The position numbers and the translations under genes are program-made. The notes below the pieces were generated by a model. The model saw only the letters and a list, made by a program, of their open reading frames with translations. It was not told the DNA's origin and ran no database searches. Positions 1 through 7,558 of a stretch of DNA of 9,241 nucleotides are shown here, in pieces (position 1 is the stretch's first letter; each line of letters opens with the position of its first letter). This DNA comes from Pseudomonadota bacterium (GTDB lineage Bacteria; SAR324; XYD2-FULL-50-16; JAHJRI01): positions 1 to 9,241 of the forward strand of contig JAKSDL010000518.1 in the NCBI GenBank assembly GCA_022360105.1, written 5' to 3'.

Positions 1-1011
1 GTAATAGAAATAGGGATTAAGAATCAGGTTCTTTCTCAATTCCTGCAAATATTCTCTGCCCTGGGTGACATTTCGGCGAATAGTCCAGACCCCGCTGGTT
101 CTTCGTTGCGCCAATTGCAGATGACCAAAATCGAGAAAATACCTTCGGTCTGCCCTGTTAATATAGAGCATCTGGGGCAGAAAATCGGTTTGTTTGACGG
201 AGCTGTTGACGAGGATGCGATCCTGATCCAGTTTCAGAGAAAACCTGGTCCCTGCACGAGGGTACCAGAACGTTCTTTGCTCTCCTCCTGTCAGCAGATC
301 AAATGGGTAAGACCTAACAACCGGGGTCAGCTCTTTCCCATTGGGGCTTAAATTGCCCTGTACATCAACTAAAACAGGTACTTTGAAGTCGACGAATTTT
401 TTGAATTGTGAGCGCCGGGTCATGTTATTGACAAGTTTCACGCCAATTGAATTGATAGAGTACAGCATCAGCAGATTCTGTGGAGGATCATACAAGACAT
501 CCTCAACGCTGAAGATTTTAGATTGATAGTCGACGGGAGCTTCCAGGCGTTTTGTAATATTTGGTGTATTGAAGCGAATTTCGAGAATAATCTGGTCGCT
601 AAGCGGTAATTGATTTCGAAGGGAACGAATTTGCACCAGATCCAGTTTTCCAGCCAGTAAAATCCGATACCATTTTTTCATTTCCGCCTGAACGGTTGGA
701 TGATCCGGTGTCAAAGTATTAGCTTTTTCCAAACGTCGAAACGCCATCAGAAATTTTTTCTCTTTTTTATAGCGTTCATAGCGTTCCAGCAGATCTTCCG
801 TGGTTTTAGCTGCGGTCCTCAAATAGGCTGCTTTGTAATCTTCGTCATCAGGCGAGGACGTATAAGCCCGGTGAAATTCGATATTGGCTTCTTCATATCT
901 TCCGAGTTCTTCGAGCTCCATGCCCCTATAGTAATTGTAGTTGCAGCCTTGGACAGCAAATAAAGCAAGACATAAACCTATGGTAAATAATGCTACTTGA
1001 TTGTTTTTCAT
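1..1011 (-). CDS. Lipoprotein with an N-terminal TPR-like segment, 3' end outside window
   Basis: The reading frame is open from the ATG at 1011 to the left edge, giving 337 residues with no stop, so the C-terminus is missing. The N-terminus is a lipoprotein signal: MKNNQ, a hydrophobic stretch, then VQGC with Cys23 as the predicted lipidated residue. The next residue is Asn, so outer-membrane rather than inner-membrane retention is likely in a Gram-negative cell. Residues about 26-110 are helical and TPR-like (a GRYEEA motif near residue 39, then a second helical pair with KANTLTPDHP). The rest is probably beta-rich and I do not recognise it. It lies 53 bp downstream of the TolB-like gene on the same strand, in line with the ZapB-like gene, so the three probably share a transcript. 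The Shine-Dalgarno sequence is weak (AAGAGA directly before the ATG). Lipidation would depend on the lgt gene in this window. The function is unknown; a scaffold or assembly role is inference from the TPR-like segment only. Confidence 0.8.
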   Translation of the reverse strand, partial: MKNNQVALFTIGLCLALFAVQGCNYNYYRGMELEELGRYEEANIEFHRAYTSSPDDEDYKAAYLRTAAKTTEDLLERYERYKKEKKFLMAFRRLEKANTLTPDHPTVQAEMKKWYRILLAGKLDLVQIRSLRNQLPLSDQIILEIRFNTPNITKRLEAPVDYQSKIFSVEDVLYDPPQNLLMLYSINSIGVKLVNNMTRRSQFKKFVDFKVPVLVDVQGNLSPNGKELTPVVRSYPFDLLTGGEQRTFWYPRAGTRFSLKLDQDRILVNSSVKQTDFLPQMLYINRADRRYFLDFGHLQLAQRRTSGVWTIRRNVTQGREYLQELRKNLILNPYFYY

Positions 1012-1064: not shown

Positions 1065-2102
1065 TTATTGAAGATACTCTTGCAGTGACTCCAATTCTGA
1101 TCGAAACAGTCCTTTTTGAAATTGAGGCAGGTCGGATGTTTCTTTTTTATCTGGCCAGATCCAGGGATTGATATCATTTAATTTGTGCACCATATCCCTG
1201 GTATTCTTTTTCTCCCCGGAGTCTGACAAAATCAGCATCAACAGCGCCAGACTGTTATTTTCGTCAAGGTCTCTGGCTTGCTCTGCTGATTTTGAAACCC
1301 ATGAGCCTTGCTTCCCTAGAAGAAAAAACGTTTCAGAAAGCAGGGCATGTATTCTGGCGTTGTTTACATAATTCATGGCAGCAGACCTAAGCATTCTTTC
1401 TACTTCGATCAAAAGTGTCTTCTTTTCCGCCAGAAGTAACTGATTGGCAGCAAAAATCATCCCTTCCGCGATATCTGCCACGAATAAGTCATATCGTTGT
1501 TTTTTAACTTGACGATTCAATTCACGAATTGAATTCAAATCAGGAATACTTGTTGGCTCATATAGGGATTTTCTGAATATCAGCATCTTTTGAATGGTCA
1601 GTTCAGTGTGCCGGGGAAAGCTAAATCGATTCTTATGGCGAAACCCGGGTTGAATCCATTTGGCTACGGACAAAAACAGCTTATCCAGCTTTATTTCCAG
1701 CTCATCCCTTGCAAATGAAATAGCAAACTCTTTTTGATCGTTTCGTGGTGTGAATCGTTTAAGGGAAATATCCAGTATGCCCTGGTCCAACACGAACTGA
1801 AACGAACCCGTTATTAAAACAGTATTTTGAACAGTAATGGGAACGCCTTTGTGGACTTGGTGTTGCCACAAGTGAATGGTACTGAGGGAATGAAAGCGGC
1901 AATCCTCACAACCTTCCGCTAAGAAAGATTGTAATCTTGCCTGGATATAATATCCTAACCAGTCATTTGCCGGGTTGTCCCGTTGGTTGGTAAAAGGGGC
2001 AATACCAACCAGTTCATTTCCTGAGACGGGGTGTGGTGCTAAACTGCATACCAGTATGACGATTGCGTATAAGAGAACTAACGATTTATAAGCAATGCTC
2101 AT
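1065..2102 (-). CDS. Exported protein, TolB-like N-terminal domain with helical repeat C-terminus
   Basis: This is a 345-residue protein if it starts at the ATG at 2102, 10 bp after the ZapB-like stop codon. I chose this start because it gives a normal Sec signal peptide (MSIAYK, then a hydrophobic run to about residue 22, likely cut near VSG-NE at 28/29). The frame stays open to an ATG at 2225, but those extra 41 codons lie inside zapB and would bury the signal peptide. After cleavage, a segment around residues 30-62 (LVGIAPFTNQ ... DWLGYYIQ) resembles the TolB-like N-terminal domain, of the form 'IAVLPFxNxS...DWLGxGL', that also occurs in some TPR and FlgT/CsgG-like envelope proteins. A CEDC pair follows at residues 65-68. 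The C-terminal half is helical and TPR-like around residues 235-320. It is probably periplasmic, and may bind peptidoglycan- or division-associated partners, but that is inference. No close named family is recognised. Confidence 0.72.
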   Translation of the reverse strand: MSIAYKSLVLLYAIVILVCSLAPHPVSGNELVGIAPFTNQRDNPANDWLGYYIQARLQSFLAEGCEDCRFHSLSTIHLWQHQVHKGVPITVQNTVLITGSFQFVLDQGILDISLKRFTPRNDQKEFAISFARDELEIKLDKLFLSVAKWIQPGFRHKNRFSFPRHTELTIQKMLIFRKSLYEPTSIPDLNSIRELNRQVKKQRYDLFVADIAEGMIFAANQLLLAEKKTLLIEVERMLRSAAMNYVNNARIHALLSETFFLLGKQGSWVSKSAEQARDLDENNSLALLMLILSDSGEKKNTRDMVHKLNDINPWIWPDKKETSDLPQFQKGLFRSELESLQEYLQ

Positions 2103-2112
2103 ATGCAGCTTA

Positions 2113-2361
2113 CTAAAACTGATGGCGATATTGGCTTTCCTGAGGTTGGTCTTCCTGATCCTGTTCCGAACTGTCTGATGACTGCTGAAAAGAAGAAGAT
2201 ACGGAAGGTGTATCATCATCACCAAATTCCTTGATTAAATTGGCCATTTTCTCTTCATTCTGTCTCTTTTCCTCTTCCAGTTCATTTACCCTGGCTTGCA
2301 ATTCTTCAATTTTCTGAACAGCATTTCTGACCTTAGTCTGCAATTGATCTAATATCTCCAT
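2113..2361 (-). CDS. zapB: ZapB-like cell division coiled-coil protein
   Basis: This is a small, acidic 82-residue protein. Residues 1-45 form an unbroken predicted coiled coil with the ZapB N-terminal pattern: MEILDQLQTKVRNAVQKIEE compares well with the E. coli start 'LEVFEKLEAKVQQAIDTI'. ZapB is a cytoplasmic coiled-coil protein that forms part of the Z-ring-associated layer and binds ZapA. After the coiled coil, residues 47-82 are a low-complexity tail rich in Asp, Ser, Gln and Glu, which E. coli ZapB lacks. A good Shine-Dalgarno sequence (GAGGAAGG) sits 3 bp before the ATG at 2361. Downstream, the next gene starts 10 bp after the stop, so the two are probably co-transcribed. No zapA is visible in the window. 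A generic short coiled-coil protein is the alternative, but the N-terminal match is good for so small a protein. Confidence 0.72.
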   Translation of the reverse strand: MEILDQLQTKVRNAVQKIEELQARVNELEEEKRQNEEKMANLIKEFGDDDTPSVSSSFQQSSDSSEQDQEDQPQESQYRHQF

Positions 2362-2433: not shown

Positions 2434-4353
2434 TTATAATTCCAGATTTACATTCATTGCGTTTAAGAGCGGCATGTTATAATCGATATCTATATCGCTT
2501 TGCATTTTGGTGATCAAGCTATTTAGTACAAGCTGAGATTTTTGATTTTGCATCATAGTTTCCAGGCCGGCTAATTGCTCTCTGCTGATATCTGTCAATT
2601 CACCTTTTTGCTTATCGATCATGAATACCAGATAATTGCGGTTGCCATCCTGTATCGCTTTCGTCTGGTTTTTTTCCATCCTGAAGGCTTCCGACTTGAA
2701 GCGATTGGTTACATTCAGGTTGCTCACCTGACGATCTGAAAACTTAAATGTAGCATCAGTGATTTTTGTATTTAACGATCGGGCAACATTTTTAAAAGCT
2801 TCCAAATCCTTAACCGACGCTGCATAATCGTTCAGCTTCTGCTTGGCCAGGTTTGTTTTCTTTTCCTCTTTGGCATAATAACGGACCCTGTCTTTTACTT
2901 CTGAAAGGGGTTTTACAAAAGGCTCCTTGGAATTGGTCACCTGGTAAACGACAATTTTCTCATCACCAGCCAGTTTATGTTGTCCTTTCTGGTTGATGGT
3001 TTTCTCTTTGACCTCCTGGTACAACTGGTATGAATAGCCGATGTCTTTCAATTCTTTGTTTTCATCAAAATCACCGGTTTTGCCAACGGTTTTGTTAACC
3101 TCTTGAGCCAGTTCGGCAAGAGTCACTTCTCCTTCCTTGTTTAATAGTTTTTTAACCAGGTTAGCCAACCGTCGTTTTGCCTTGTTTTTGCGCATAGTGT
3201 CTTCAATTTCAGCTTTTACTTCCTCAAAGGGCTTTTTGGTAGCAGCTTTTTTACCCAATACCTGAACAATATGGAATCCAAAATTGCTTTTAAACGGCCT
3301 GGATATTTCATCGGTCTCCATAGCTGCCACCTGCGCTTCGAATTCGGCAACAAAGGAACCTTCATCCACCCACCCAAGATCTCCACCTTTTTTCGCTGAC
3401 CCGGGATCTTCAGAATGAATGGTTGCCAAGCTGGCAAAACTGGTTGGGTTTTTGAGTAATTGTTTGTGAAGTGAATCTGCCTTCATTCTAGCCTGCTCGG
3501 AAACATCCGGAGCTGCTCCCTGTGGAACCCTGATTAGTATATGGCGGGAATGAAAGCTGGCCTTGTTGGTAAATTCTTCGGTTACATTATTCTCATAATA
3601 CTTTTTAACTTCCTTGGGTCGTACGTTGATTTTACCCTGCACATCTTCAATACTGAGAACAAAATAATCCAAATCAAACTGACTTTTCTGCTGGAAATCG
3701 GATTTATGAAGTTCGTAATAATCTTCAATCTCTTTTTCAGTCAGATTGGCCTGGTCGGTAAACAACTCGGGAGTGAATTCGATAGCCTTGACCGTCATCT
3801 TGGACTCGTACCTTCTAAATTCTTCCTCCAGGGATTTGCGACTGACCAAGGCACCTGTTGCAACAAACCTTAAAAACTTCTGACTGAGCAGGCTTTCCTT
3901 CAGATCCTTTTCGAAACCTATTTTATCAGTGTTCATGTAACCAAGATTGGTTTCGTATTTGTAAGGATCAAAGCGCTCATCTGTCATAAAGGAAGGATTG
4001 GTATAAATCTCATGAGCCAGTTCTTTGTCAGAAACAGCCAAACCGTTTTGCTCGGCACTTTTCAGCAGCAGGGCGTTGCTGGTAAGCTGTTTAATGATCT
4101 GGGACTCCAGGTTGATCATGTTTAAATAATCGGAAGCACGATTGCCATAGCGCTGACGGATATCTTCCCGCGCATTTTCAAAAGCACGACTGAACTTGTC
4201 TATTTTAACTTCGTAACCATCTACAGTCACAATCGTATTGGAACTCTGGCTCCGGTAGGCGGAAACGCCAAAGAATGACATCACAATGACTACGATACCA
4301 ACGATAAACTTGACGCCAAAAGATTGAACGTTATCTCTGATTAGGTTTAGCAT
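2434..4353 (-). CDS. ppiD: PpiD/SurA-type periplasmic peptidyl-prolyl isomerase, membrane-anchored
   Basis: This 639-residue protein has the PpiD layout: a short cytoplasmic N-terminus, one membrane anchor (about residues 14-33), a SurA_N-type chaperone region (about 40-220), one parvulin (PPIC-type rotamase) domain (about 268-368) and a C-terminal chaperone-like region. The length is close to that of E. coli PpiD (about 620). The parvulin domain has the family landmarks: HSRHILI (268-274), GGDLGWV (323-329) and FGFHIVQV (358-365). Its two conserved histidines are H271 and H361, so it may be catalytically active, whereas the E. coli PpiD parvulin domain is reported to be inactive. PpiD sits in the inner membrane near the Sec translocon and helps newly exported proteins fold. 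The start at 4353 has an AGGAA Shine-Dalgarno sequence 8 bp upstream. It is transcribed in the same direction as the CULT gene, but 283 bp away, and is closed by a strong terminator. Confidence 0.93.
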   Translation of the reverse strand: MLNLIRDNVQSFGVKFIVGIVVIVMSFFGVSAYRSQSSNTIVTVDGYEVKIDKFSRAFENAREDIRQRYGNRASDYLNMINLESQIIKQLTSNALLLKSAEQNGLAVSDKELAHEIYTNPSFMTDERFDPYKYETNLGYMNTDKIGFEKDLKESLLSQKFLRFVATGALVSRKSLEEEFRRYESKMTVKAIEFTPELFTDQANLTEKEIEDYYELHKSDFQQKSQFDLDYFVLSIEDVQGKINVRPKEVKKYYENNVTEEFTNKASFHSRHILIRVPQGAAPDVSEQARMKADSLHKQLLKNPTSFASLATIHSEDPGSAKKGGDLGWVDEGSFVAEFEAQVAAMETDEISRPFKSNFGFHIVQVLGKKAATKKPFEEVKAEIEDTMRKNKAKRRLANLVKKLLNKEGEVTLAELAQEVNKTVGKTGDFDENKELKDIGYSYQLYQEVKEKTINQKGQHKLAGDEKIVVYQVTNSKEPFVKPLSEVKDRVRYYAKEEKKTNLAKQKLNDYAASVKDLEAFKNVARSLNTKITDATFKFSDRQVSNLNVTNRFKSEAFRMEKNQTKAIQDGNRNYLVFMIDKQKGELTDISREQLAGLETMMQNQKSQLVLNSLITKMQSDIDIDYNMPLLNAMNVNLEL

Positions 4354-4636: not shown

Positions 4637-5074
4637 CTAAATCAACAAGTCGAGAATCAATCCGAAAAAGTTCCGGTCGTCCATGGAACGATAGAACCAA
4701 CCGAGGTGGGCATTACATTGATTGCAGATAGCAACCTGCCAATCAAACCCTTCAAACCAGGTCCATTCGGCAGTGGGAACTCCAACGGCAGTGCACCCTT
4801 CAGCTTCAAAAAAACAACCGATCCGAAAAACATGCCCGCCGGGATTTAAGAACGTATGCTCAAACACCCCGCCCACTTGAATTTGCTTGTTGGGAAGGGT
4901 GATTTTATTTTCGCAGTTTTTGCAGAGTATATACTTTTCTTCCTGCTCTTCTGTCTGGTCTTTTGTCTCGGTAAACCGCTTCTTTTTCTTATCGATATTG
5001 GATACCAAAAACCAAAATTTTCCAGGGTCGCTTGATAAATTGCTGTTTGTTTCTTCAAGCTGCCGCGAATACAT
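4637..5074 (-). CDS. Bacterial CULT-domain protein (cereblon-like, cyclic-imide-binding fold)
   Basis: This is a 145-residue cytoplasmic protein. Residues about 47-145 match the CULT domain, the thalidomide-binding domain of cereblon, which also occurs as a stand-alone protein in some proteobacteria and spirochaetes (for example MsCI4 of Magnetospirillum). Two CxxC pairs (C51/C54 and C117/C120) should bind one zinc. W106, W112 and W126 match the three tryptophans of the ligand pocket (human W380, W386, W400; MsCI4 W79, W85, W99) with identical spacing of 6 and 14 residues. Y128 matches MsCI4 Y101 and human F402. A loop Asn-Pro (N77-P78) lies where cereblon has N351. The domain ends with the family-like FFGLILD motif. 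The first 46 residues are a charged, lysine/glutamate-rich extension of unknown role. The ATG at 5074 is chosen because GGAGG lies 7 bp upstream; the frame extends to 5149 without such a site. It has no Lon-like or DDB1-binding part, unlike eukaryotic cereblon, so no ubiquitin-ligase role is implied. The natural ligand is unknown. Confidence 0.9.
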   Translation of the reverse strand: MYSRQLEETNSNLSSDPGKFWFLVSNIDKKKKRFTETKDQTEEQEEKYILCKNCENKITLPNKQIQVGGVFEHTFLNPGGHVFRIGCFFEAEGCTAVGVPTAEWTWFEGFDWQVAICNQCNAHLGWFYRSMDDRNFFGLILDLLI

Positions 5075-5108
5075 GGTTAATCCTCCAAAACGTGTGGTTC
5101 TTCGATAT

Positions 5109-5136
5109 TTTTTACATGATGGAAAAACATAGGCAA
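5109..5136 (-). promoter_or_regulatory. Possible promoter of the CULT-domain gene
   Basis: On the minus strand, TTGCCT (5136-5131) and TAAAAA (5114-5109) are separated by 16 bp and end about 35 bp before the ATG at 5074. The match is partial, and the A-rich -10 is weak. It is offered as the best candidate in this stretch, not as a firm call. Confidence 0.3.
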
Positions 5137-5205
5137 CCCCGTTTTCCATAAAGAGACAGGTAACTTCCAGGTTTTTTCCGGGCTTGCCAAATTCGAACCA
5201 ATTCG

Positions 5206-5247
5206 CTGATCATATATTTGAGCAATGAACGTTCATCTTCGGATCAG
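5206..5247. promoter_or_regulatory. 12-bp perfect palindrome inside a wider inverted repeat, divergent intergenic region
   Basis: ATGAACGTTCAT at 5225-5236 is a perfect 12-bp palindrome. It is enclosed by a second inverted pair, CTGATC (5206-5211) and GATCAG (5242-5247), although the two are not exactly concentric. It lies about 75 bp upstream of the pheA promoter and about 150 bp upstream of the CULT start. A symmetric site of this size between divergent genes suits a dimeric repressor such as a TetR-type protein. No such regulator is encoded in the window, so the role is inferred. The rest of 5075-5402 holds only the two promoters described and no gene that I can support. Confidence 0.35.
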
Positions 5248-5312
5248 GAATTATCTTTCCCAACAGCTTCAAAAATATCGGCCAAAATGTTGACGTCTGA
5301 TAGCTTTGTCGA

Positions 5313-5341
5313 TTGACTGTCCCTGCCATTCGATTTTATAA
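5313..5341 (+). promoter_or_regulatory. Near-consensus sigma-70 promoter for pheA
   Basis: TTGACT (5313-5318) and TTATAA (5336-5341) are separated by exactly 17 bp, which is five of six consensus bases at each element with optimal spacing. Transcription would start near 5348, leaving a leader of about 55 bases before the pheA ATG at 5403. I see no leader peptide rich in phenylalanine codons and no terminator hairpin there, so classical attenuation is not supported. Confidence 0.75.
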
Positions 5342-5402
5342 GTTTATATTGTCACATCTGATCAAGTGAGACCATGCAATTCCACATCCAGCTAAAAAAC
5401 TC

Positions 5403-6269
5403 ATGAAACCAAAACCTATAGACCTTGACCTCTGCAAATACAGCAAAATCCTAACCCTGGGTCCCAAGGGTACCTTCAGCAACCAGGCGGCTTCCCTGGT
5501 CGGAGGTACTGAAATTACAGATATCCAGTACACAACAACCATTCCGCAAATCGCCCGGGAAGTTCAGAAAAACCCCAATATTCTTGGTGTCATGCCGGTG
5601 GAAAATGCCATCTCAGGTATGGTAGGCCAGGCACAGGATGCGTTGCTTGAATCTGATGTCATTATTGTAAACGAGCTGCTGTTGGAAATCCGCTTCAGCA
5701 TGGTCTCCTATCTACCTTTGGAAGAAGTCAGGCAGTTCTTTAGCCATACAGAAGCATTCAACCAAACCATGATTTTCACCTCCCAATCGATGCCAGAAGC
5801 CAGCGTGGTGTTTTCAAATTCCAATATCCACTCCGGAGAGCTGTTTCTGGAAAGACCGGGAGAACCCGTTTCCGCAATTATCCCCAAAGTGCTTGCTGAA
5901 AATGATGACCGCTTCAAAGATAAGGTTGCCGCAGAGAATATTCAGGATTACCAGCAAAACATGACACGATTTGTAGTAATCATACAAAAACCCGCCGACT
6001 ACAAGCCGGATTTCACAAAAAAGAAAACGTCACTTTGCATCGAATTCAAGGAAGACAGGCACTCCCTGCTATTTGAGTTGTTAAGGGAGTTTCATGTTTT
6101 CGGCATCAACTTATGCAGGCTGGAGTCGAGGCCTATCAAAAACACCCCCTGGAATTACCGATTTTTCATAGATATGTTTAACAATCACCGGATGGATGCC
6201 TGCATGGAGGAGTTAAGAAATCAAAATATAGGATTCAAGCTGTTTGGCAGTTTTGATCCCATCAACTGA
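5403..6269 (+). CDS. pheA: Prephenate dehydratase, stand-alone, with ACT domain
   Basis: This 288-residue enzyme converts prephenate to phenylpyruvate, the committed step of phenylalanine synthesis, in the cytoplasm. The catalytic domain (about residues 14-195) shows LGPKGTFSNQAA (19-30), GVMPVENAISG (62-72) and the TRF motif (188-190), whose threonine is part of the active site. The ACT domain (about 208-284) carries ESRP (241-244), part of the phenylalanine-binding site. Its partner motif, usually PGAL, reads RHSLL here (219-223), so feedback binding may be altered. No chorismate mutase domain is fused, unlike the E. coli bifunctional P-protein. The ATG at 5403 is the only sensible start, but no Shine-Dalgarno sequence is visible. 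The gene stands alone, behind its own sigma-70 promoter and followed by a long non-coding stretch. Its divergence from the CULT gene may be chance or may reflect shared control. Confidence 0.93.
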   Translation: MKPKPIDLDLCKYSKILTLGPKGTFSNQAASLVGGTEITDIQYTTTIPQIAREVQKNPNILGVMPVENAISGMVGQAQDALLESDVIIVNELLLEIRFSMVSYLPLEEVRQFFSHTEAFNQTMIFTSQSMPEASVVFSNSNIHSGELFLERPGEPVSAIIPKVLAENDDRFKDKVAAENIQDYQQNMTRFVVIIQKPADYKPDFTKKKTSLCIEFKEDRHSLLFELLREFHVFGINLCRLESRPIKNTPWNYRFFIDMFNNHRMDACMEELRNQNIGFKLFGSFDPIN

Positions 6270-6766: not shown

Positions 6767-7558
6767 ATGGACACCATTATCATCTGGGATGTCGATCCGG
6801 AGCTGTTCCGAGTGGGAGGTTTTGCAATCCGTTGGTATGGATTGTTGTATGCCACAGCTTTTCTGGCTGGGACCACCATAATGAGTCGGATTTTTGCGTT
6901 GGAAAACAAACCGGCAAAATCCATTGACAGGCTGTTAATTTACATGCTGGTTGCCGTTGTCGTGGGAGCCCGACTGGGTGAGATTCTGTTTTACAATCTT
7001 GAATATTACCTGCAAAATCCTTTCAAAATATTCCGAGTCTGGGAAGGTGGACTATCCAGCCATGGCGGATTTGTAGGTATTTTCACCGCTCTCTATTTCT
7101 ATTCTAAAAAAACTCCCGATCAACCTTATCTTTGGATTTTAGATAGGATATGCATTGTTGTGGCGTTTGCAGGTATTCTCATTCGTATCGGCAATTTTAT
7201 TAATTCTGAAATCATCGGTATACCGACCAACGGGGCTTGGGGTGTTGTTTTTAAAAATGTTGATAATATACCAAGGCATCCCGCCCAATTGTATGAATCC
7301 TTGATGTATCTTGGAGTCTTTCTGCTGTTGCTTGCCATCTACAAACTGGTTGACACGACTAAAAAACAAGGGTTGCTGATAGGCGTGTTCCTGACAGTGG
7401 GCTTTTCGTTGAGATTTTTGAACGAGTTTGTGAAGGAAAACCTGGGCTTTGCTAAAAATGAGGCTATTCTTAACACAGGACAGCTATTGAGCATTCCGGT
7501 AATATTGATAGGATTGTTTCTGTTATGGAAAGGCTGGAATCATGACAAGCCTAAATAA
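6767..7558 (+). CDS. lgt: Prolipoprotein diacylglyceryl transferase
   Basis: This 263-residue inner-membrane enzyme transfers the diacylglyceryl group from phosphatidylglycerol to the lipobox cysteine of prolipoproteins, the first step of lipoprotein maturation. About seven hydrophobic membrane segments are visible. The family landmarks are in order: RWYGLLYA (22-29), GARLGEI (67-73), the SSHGG motif with the essential His at 99, RIGNFINSEIIG (140-151) with Arg140 matching the essential E. coli Arg143, RHPAQLYES (170-178), LRFLNEF with Arg216 matching Arg239, and GQLLSIP (238-244). The usual G-R-x-GN has Ile before the Arg here. The length is slightly below the E. coli enzyme (291). It is monocistronic as far as can be seen, with 497 bp of non-coding DNA before it. 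Its stop codon overlaps that of the convergent BatE-like gene by 8 bp. A substrate lipoprotein is encoded at the left edge of the window. Confidence 0.96.
   Translation: MDTIIIWDVDPELFRVGGFAIRWYGLLYATAFLAGTTIMSRIFALENKPAKSIDRLLIYMLVAVVVGARLGEILFYNLEYYLQNPFKIFRVWEGGLSSHGGFVGIFTALYFYSKKTPDQPYLWILDRICIVVAFAGILIRIGNFINSEIIGIPTNGAWGVVFKNVDNIPRHPAQLYESLMYLGVFLLLLAIYKLVDTTKKQGLLIGVFLTVGFSLRFLNEFVKENLGFAKNEAILNTGQLLSIPVILIGLFLLWKGWNHDKPK

Follow-up and report, generated by a model that had tools for sequence, protein, structure and literature searches.

A free-standing CULT-domain protein with cereblon-type pocket residues in the SAR324 lineage

In a 9,241-nucleotide stretch of DNA from a SAR324-lineage bacterium (contig JAKSDL010000518.1, assembly GCA_022360105.1; hereafter the window), we found a 145-codon open reading frame (ORF), running from 5074 down to 4637 on the minus strand, whose product almost certainly belongs to the CULT family, that of the thalidomide-binding domain of cereblon. 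Its family, backbone fold, pocket residues and conservation were all computed here. The family itself was already described in 2015, and what is new is a member from the SAR324 lineage. As the best overall explanation we tentatively propose, at a little under an even chance, that the protein would be a ring-binding reader of damaged protein ends.

Family, fold and pocket residues

The initial annotation had identified the protein as a bacterial CULT protein, and sequence comparison, backbone superposition and conservation all bear this out. A phmmer search of the PDB matched residues 49-144 to MsCI4, the cereblon isoform 4 of Magnetospirillum gryphiswaldense (MGR_0879; PDB 4v2y and others), at 94.8 bits and an E-value of 4.9e-26, a similarity far beyond chance that corresponds to about 40% identity over the shared CULT domain; the best 'Protein cereblon' chain scored 51.7 bits (E 8.9e-13). 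The predicted structure has the beta-tent fold of the CULT family and no second folded region. Yippee/Mis18 (PF03226), a related fold, was barely above its cut-off (27.8 versus 26.6 bits) over only 28 residues (105-132), and the CULT match is far stronger; an NCBIfam scan of the protein gave nothing near any cut-off. The plus-strand frame read over the gene is interrupted by stops. A start giving 145 residues is favoured over a longer 170-residue frame because a GGAGG precedes the ATG at 5074 by 7 nt. The product is probably cytosolic and free-standing, with no signal peptide or membrane stretch seen by eye.

The residues that had been proposed to build a complete thalidomide-type pocket (C51/C54, C117/C120, W106, W112, W126 and Y128) are all at those positions in the translation, and the spacings W-6-W-14-W and W-5-CxxC-6-W are correct. 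In the alignment with MsCI4, whose residue numbers follow PMC8900816, W106/W112/W126/Y128 correspond to W79/W85/W99/Y101, N77-P78 to N50-P51 (N50 counted along the alignment), E103 to E76 and W104 to F77. The two proteins thus share the three tryptophans that line the pocket, the tyrosine at the cage base, the NPxG at the hairpin tip and the two CxxC motifs, which align as the putative ligands of one zinc. Sequence, superposition of the modelled backbone and conservation therefore support the claim of a complete pocket, with the cage predicted at the level of residues and backbone. Unlike MsCI4, the window protein has W104 in place of F77, C94 in place of a leucine, and a long disordered tail rich in lysine and glutamate. 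Unlike the thalidomide-binding domain of animal cereblon, it comes without a LON domain (none in a Pfam scan, hence no LON-CULT fusion of the cereblon type) or DDB1-binding region, and the cage base is tyrosine rather than the phenylalanine of animal cereblon, a difference noted in the available part of PMC8900816. It resembles the Group I prokaryotic proteins of Lupas et al. 2015 (PMC4287342, available in part) in being bacterial and consisting of a CULT domain only, and it differs from them in belonging to the SAR324 lineage. A fusion of CULT to LON or another domain among the relatives was considered and rejected, as the 8 ORFs inspected, out of 9 longer than 185 residues, look by eye like upstream read-through.

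Conservation was assessed on loci retrieved with CULT profiles or patterns; from 142 loci, two without a CULT ORF (L010 and L122) and five duplicates were removed to leave 135, and L027, which is too short, was left out of the conservation analysis and the tree, leaving 134. The three tryptophans and four cysteines are complete in 133 of the 134, N77 is present in 133 and P78 in 131, and conservation is highest mainly in columns that belong to the zinc site or the pocket. Position 128 is tyrosine in 99, phenylalanine in 33 and tryptophan in 2; position 104 is variable (F 44, Y 28, H 25, W 18, N 10, others fewer). Outside these positions, C87 and C94 (residues 87-94, window 4793-4816) flank a hairpin turn and may form a disulfide or thiol pair; both occur in 95 of the 134 relatives and one alone in 20.

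What the pocket may read

In the mechanism that we envision, one zinc would pin the free-standing protein, and a planar ring with a -CO-NH-CO- edge (glutarimide, succinimide, dihydrouracil or uracil) would be held between the three tryptophans, with hydrogen bonds from the Y128 hydroxyl and from backbone atoms in the W104-W106 strand. The protein would be a reader and not an enzyme; the natural ligand that we favour would be the cyclic imide on the C-terminus of a damaged protein, and the CULT protein would act as an adaptor or would sequester what it captures. That the ligand is a cyclic imide or a uracil-like ring is quite probable. MsCI4 binds thalidomide and uridine and folds on binding (available part of PMC4449219), and by analogy the window protein would bind a ring and fold its pocket around the ligand. 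Human cereblon reads C-terminal cyclic imides (PMC12117711, in its available passages), and it is from this activity that we infer, by analogy, a non-catalytic reader of such ends in a bacterium. That damaged protein ends are the target in vivo we regard as possible, with the chances somewhat against it.

Several points weigh against such a reader. To our knowledge, the LON part of eukaryotic cereblon and the ubiquitin ligase are absent from bacteria, and an adaptor would therefore be without a known partner. No effector is visible, neither a protease nor any other having been found as a consistent neighbour among the 135 loci. The conservation is partly built in, since every locus was retrieved by CULT-derived queries. 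A metabolite ligand would account for the pocket equally well, and the MsCI4 authors, in the available passages of PMC4449219, could not place uridine recognition in a biological context. Titles and abstract openings in the open-licence PMC literature yielded MsCI4 structure and ligand work and no bacterial role for CULT, which is a weak negative.

An alternative is that the protein senses or buffers a free metabolite: uracil, uridine, dihydrouracil or a hydantoin would bind in the cage, to be reported or stored by the protein. MsCI4 binds uridine and not thymidine or cytidine/cytosine, according to the available part of PMC4449219, and pyrimidine genes lie near some relatives (dUTPase at L019 and, by family, at L017; carA at L013; pyrF near L004). 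These neighbours, however, were selected by eye, and each is lineage-specific; no pyrimidine gene adjoins CULT in the window. A uracil sensor lacks a context, and with no fused DNA-binding or enzyme domain it would have no visible output. We consider this rather unlikely, and place the reader of damaged ends slightly ahead of it for two reasons: cyclic imides can arise non-enzymatically, and conservation lies in the pocket, not in the neighbourhood.

Distribution and gene neighbourhoods

The features of the window are collected in Table 1.

Table 1. Features of the window, with the basis of each assignment
Feature	Position	Strand	Basis
CULT-domain protein, 145 aa	4637..5074	-	ORF listing, translation, MsCI4 alignment
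Shine-Dalgarno-like GGAGG	5082..5086	-	read from sequence
Disordered Lys/Glu-rich tail, residues 1-43	4946..5074	-	pLDDT <50, little conservation
CULT domain, residues 47-145	4640..4936	-	sequence alignment, structure model, backbone superposition
First CxxC, residues 51-54	4913..4924	-	translation, conservation
NPxG hairpin tip, residues 77-80 (N77-P78-G79-G80)	4835..4846	-	translation; motif named in PMC4449219 (available part)
W104-W112, with first two cage tryptophans W106 and W112	4739..4765	-	translation, MsCI4 alignment, conservation
Second CxxC, residues 117-120	4715..4726	-	translation, conservation
Third cage tryptophan W126 and Y128	4691..4699	-	translation, MsCI4 alignment, conservation
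ppiD-type periplasmic chaperone gene	2434..4353	-	SurA_N_3 and rotamase domains; NCBIfam PpiD model below cut-off
ZapB-like gene	2113..2361	-	PF06005, 32.9 versus 31.5 bits
f6, no accepted family	1065..2225	-	TTG start overlaps zapB, probably too early
f7, runs off window	1..1011	-	ORF listing, domain scan
pheA-type prephenate dehydratase gene	5403..6269	+	PF00800
lgt	6767..7558	+	PF01790, TIGR00544

A first contig scan of genomes with the single protein as query confirmed no relative. A single-sequence search gave 29 relatives out of 32 candidates and a profile search 304 out of 1708, including records labelled Nitrospirota and Aminicenantes; among the matches listed (the best 120 of the 304), one, which comes from a Nitrospirota bacterium, is named 'cereblon family protein'. 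Counted as genomes with a match at E <=0.001, with the larger phyla sampled and group names inferred from seed-record titles, CULT occurs in 17/52 genomes of the SAR324 record's phylum, 15/42 of the Thiotrichaceae record's order, 11/295 of the Thermodesulfovibrionia record's phylum, 32/296 of the Spirochaetes record's phylum (one with two internal stops), 40/395 of the Desulfobacterales record's phylum (one a fragment, E 7.8e-4) and 8/297 of the Aminicenantes record's phylum. The tree of 135 rows rests on few columns, and 45 of its 132 inner branches are left open. The 9 groups can be placed on it with 23 changes, as compared to 80 when the labels are shuffled; all 7 window-type rows fall on a single branch (99/93), and three changes account for the 18 SAR324 rows. 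The patchy counts and the tree therefore suggest repeated gain or loss of a gene that has yet been long held in the SAR324 lineage.

Within the SAR324 phylum, genomes with CULT seem, by eye, to tend towards larger sizes (several have 5-10 Mb) than CULT-less genomes. L053-L063, also from this phylum, carry a more distant CULT type in different conserved surroundings: an MscS-like channel gene overlaps the CULT start in L056, L058, L060 and L062 (family checked on L056), and a response-regulator/TPR/aminopeptidase group lies beside CULT in L055, L061, L063 and partly L059 (checked on L061). No support was found for carriage of CULT by phages, plasmids or defence systems: tblastn found no match in plasmid and phage sequences, two viral-contig scans confirmed no relative, the PADLOC anti-phage models gave no family at E up to 0.1 (though lacking a model proves nothing by itself), and PHROGs gave two weak partial matches.

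The proposed comparison of gene neighbourhoods, run on the 135 loci (105 lineages at 65% identity), indicated no partner. Neighbours were called by a simple longest-ORF script and grouped by BLASTP, so diverged copies are missed. The most widely shared families reach 5 lineages and are each limited to one group, and within two ORFs either side only UPF0047 (PF01894, divergent) recurs at a constant place and strand across groups, with one locus in each of three groups (L016, L136 and L160). In 66 of the 135 loci CULT has no ORF on its own strand within 100 bp to either side; an alpha/beta hydrolase family (F32) lies 2-19 bp before it in 3 Desulfobacterota loci.

Local arrangements were also seen. 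In five Thiotrichales loci (L012, L018, L027, L123 and L124) a same-strand rpoH precedes CULT by 34-623 bp (TIGR02392, checked on L012). In L017 and L019 CULT is flanked on one side by TldD/PmbA-like genes, which score below NCBIfam cut-offs, and on the other by a dUTPase gene (checked on L019). A fused cobA/hemD-type gene directly precedes it in L015, L022, L226 and L230, with gaps of -41 to 65 bp (checked on L022). In L145, L146, L151, L153, L158 and L162, CULT ends 1 bp from a convergent zf-HC2 anti-sigma-type gene that itself adjoins a sigma-70-type gene (checked on L145). Genes such as dUTPase, carA, pyrF, rpoH and TldD/PmbA-like could suggest a pyrimidine or proteostasis theme, but they were chosen by eye and are not used as proof.

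The position of CULT upstream of ppiD had been taken as suggestive, and as gene order this stands: in all seven window-type loci CULT lies directly 5' of the same-strand ppiD (gaps 50-283 bp), with pheA divergent upstream. For function, however, the hint is weak. The ppiD family adjoins CULT in 0 of the 128 other loci, and of six CULT-less genomes fetched from the SAR324 phylum, three (L257, L258 and L259; G052, G054 and G055) keep lgt, pheA, ppiD, zapB, f6 and f7 in unchanged order (pheA / ppiD-zapB-f6-f7), so the block is independent of CULT. A permissive six-frame profile search found no CULT remnant in these three; in the other three (L260, L261 and L262) the search of the stretch gave only a ppiD match, which is partial in L262. 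In L257 an ArsS-type radical SAM gene (4976-5938) sits between pheA and ppiD, where CULT sits in the window. Scans of the window, which prove little, placed a weak terminator-like site in the gap from CULT to ppiD; on the CULT strand they found no sigma-70-like site ahead of the gene.

An envelope protein-folding partner acting with PpiD could explain the constant order in the seven loci and the rpoH genes upstream of CULT in Thiotrichales. PpiD works in the periplasm, and by eye CULT lacks a signal peptide; a PpiD-type match is present in 52/52 SAR324-phylum genomes (in some the rotamase domain only) against 17/52 for CULT; and the terminator-like site separates the two genes. With the CULT-less genomes that retain the block, this makes such a partnership very unlikely, and PpiD was set back as a candidate. 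Given the sparse recurrence of neighbours and the CULT-free blocks, gene order does not reveal CULT function. Likewise very unlikely is a redox or repair enzyme using C87 and C94, as in MsrB, with which CULT shares the beta-tent fold (PMC4287342, available part): although most relatives have both cysteines, one or both are missing in 39 of 134 while the tryptophan cage stays, MsCI4 has only the first and still binds ligands, and the available passages of the CULT literature name no enzyme activity.

Significance for the family

Several bacterial groups have stand-alone proteins in which the pocket that thalidomide and many protein degraders target in human cereblon is nearly unchanged, and the sources consulted name neither a physiological ligand nor a partner in bacteria. 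The neighbourhood survey removes a tempting shortcut, as the partner is not indicated by gene order, and the small size and single domain of the CULT protein make the question of its ligand testable at the bench. We consider it doubtful that a stand-alone CULT protein reads C-terminal cyclic imides without ubiquitin; if it did, the damage reading of cereblon would be independent of, and older than, the ubiquitin ligase into which eukaryotes built cereblon.
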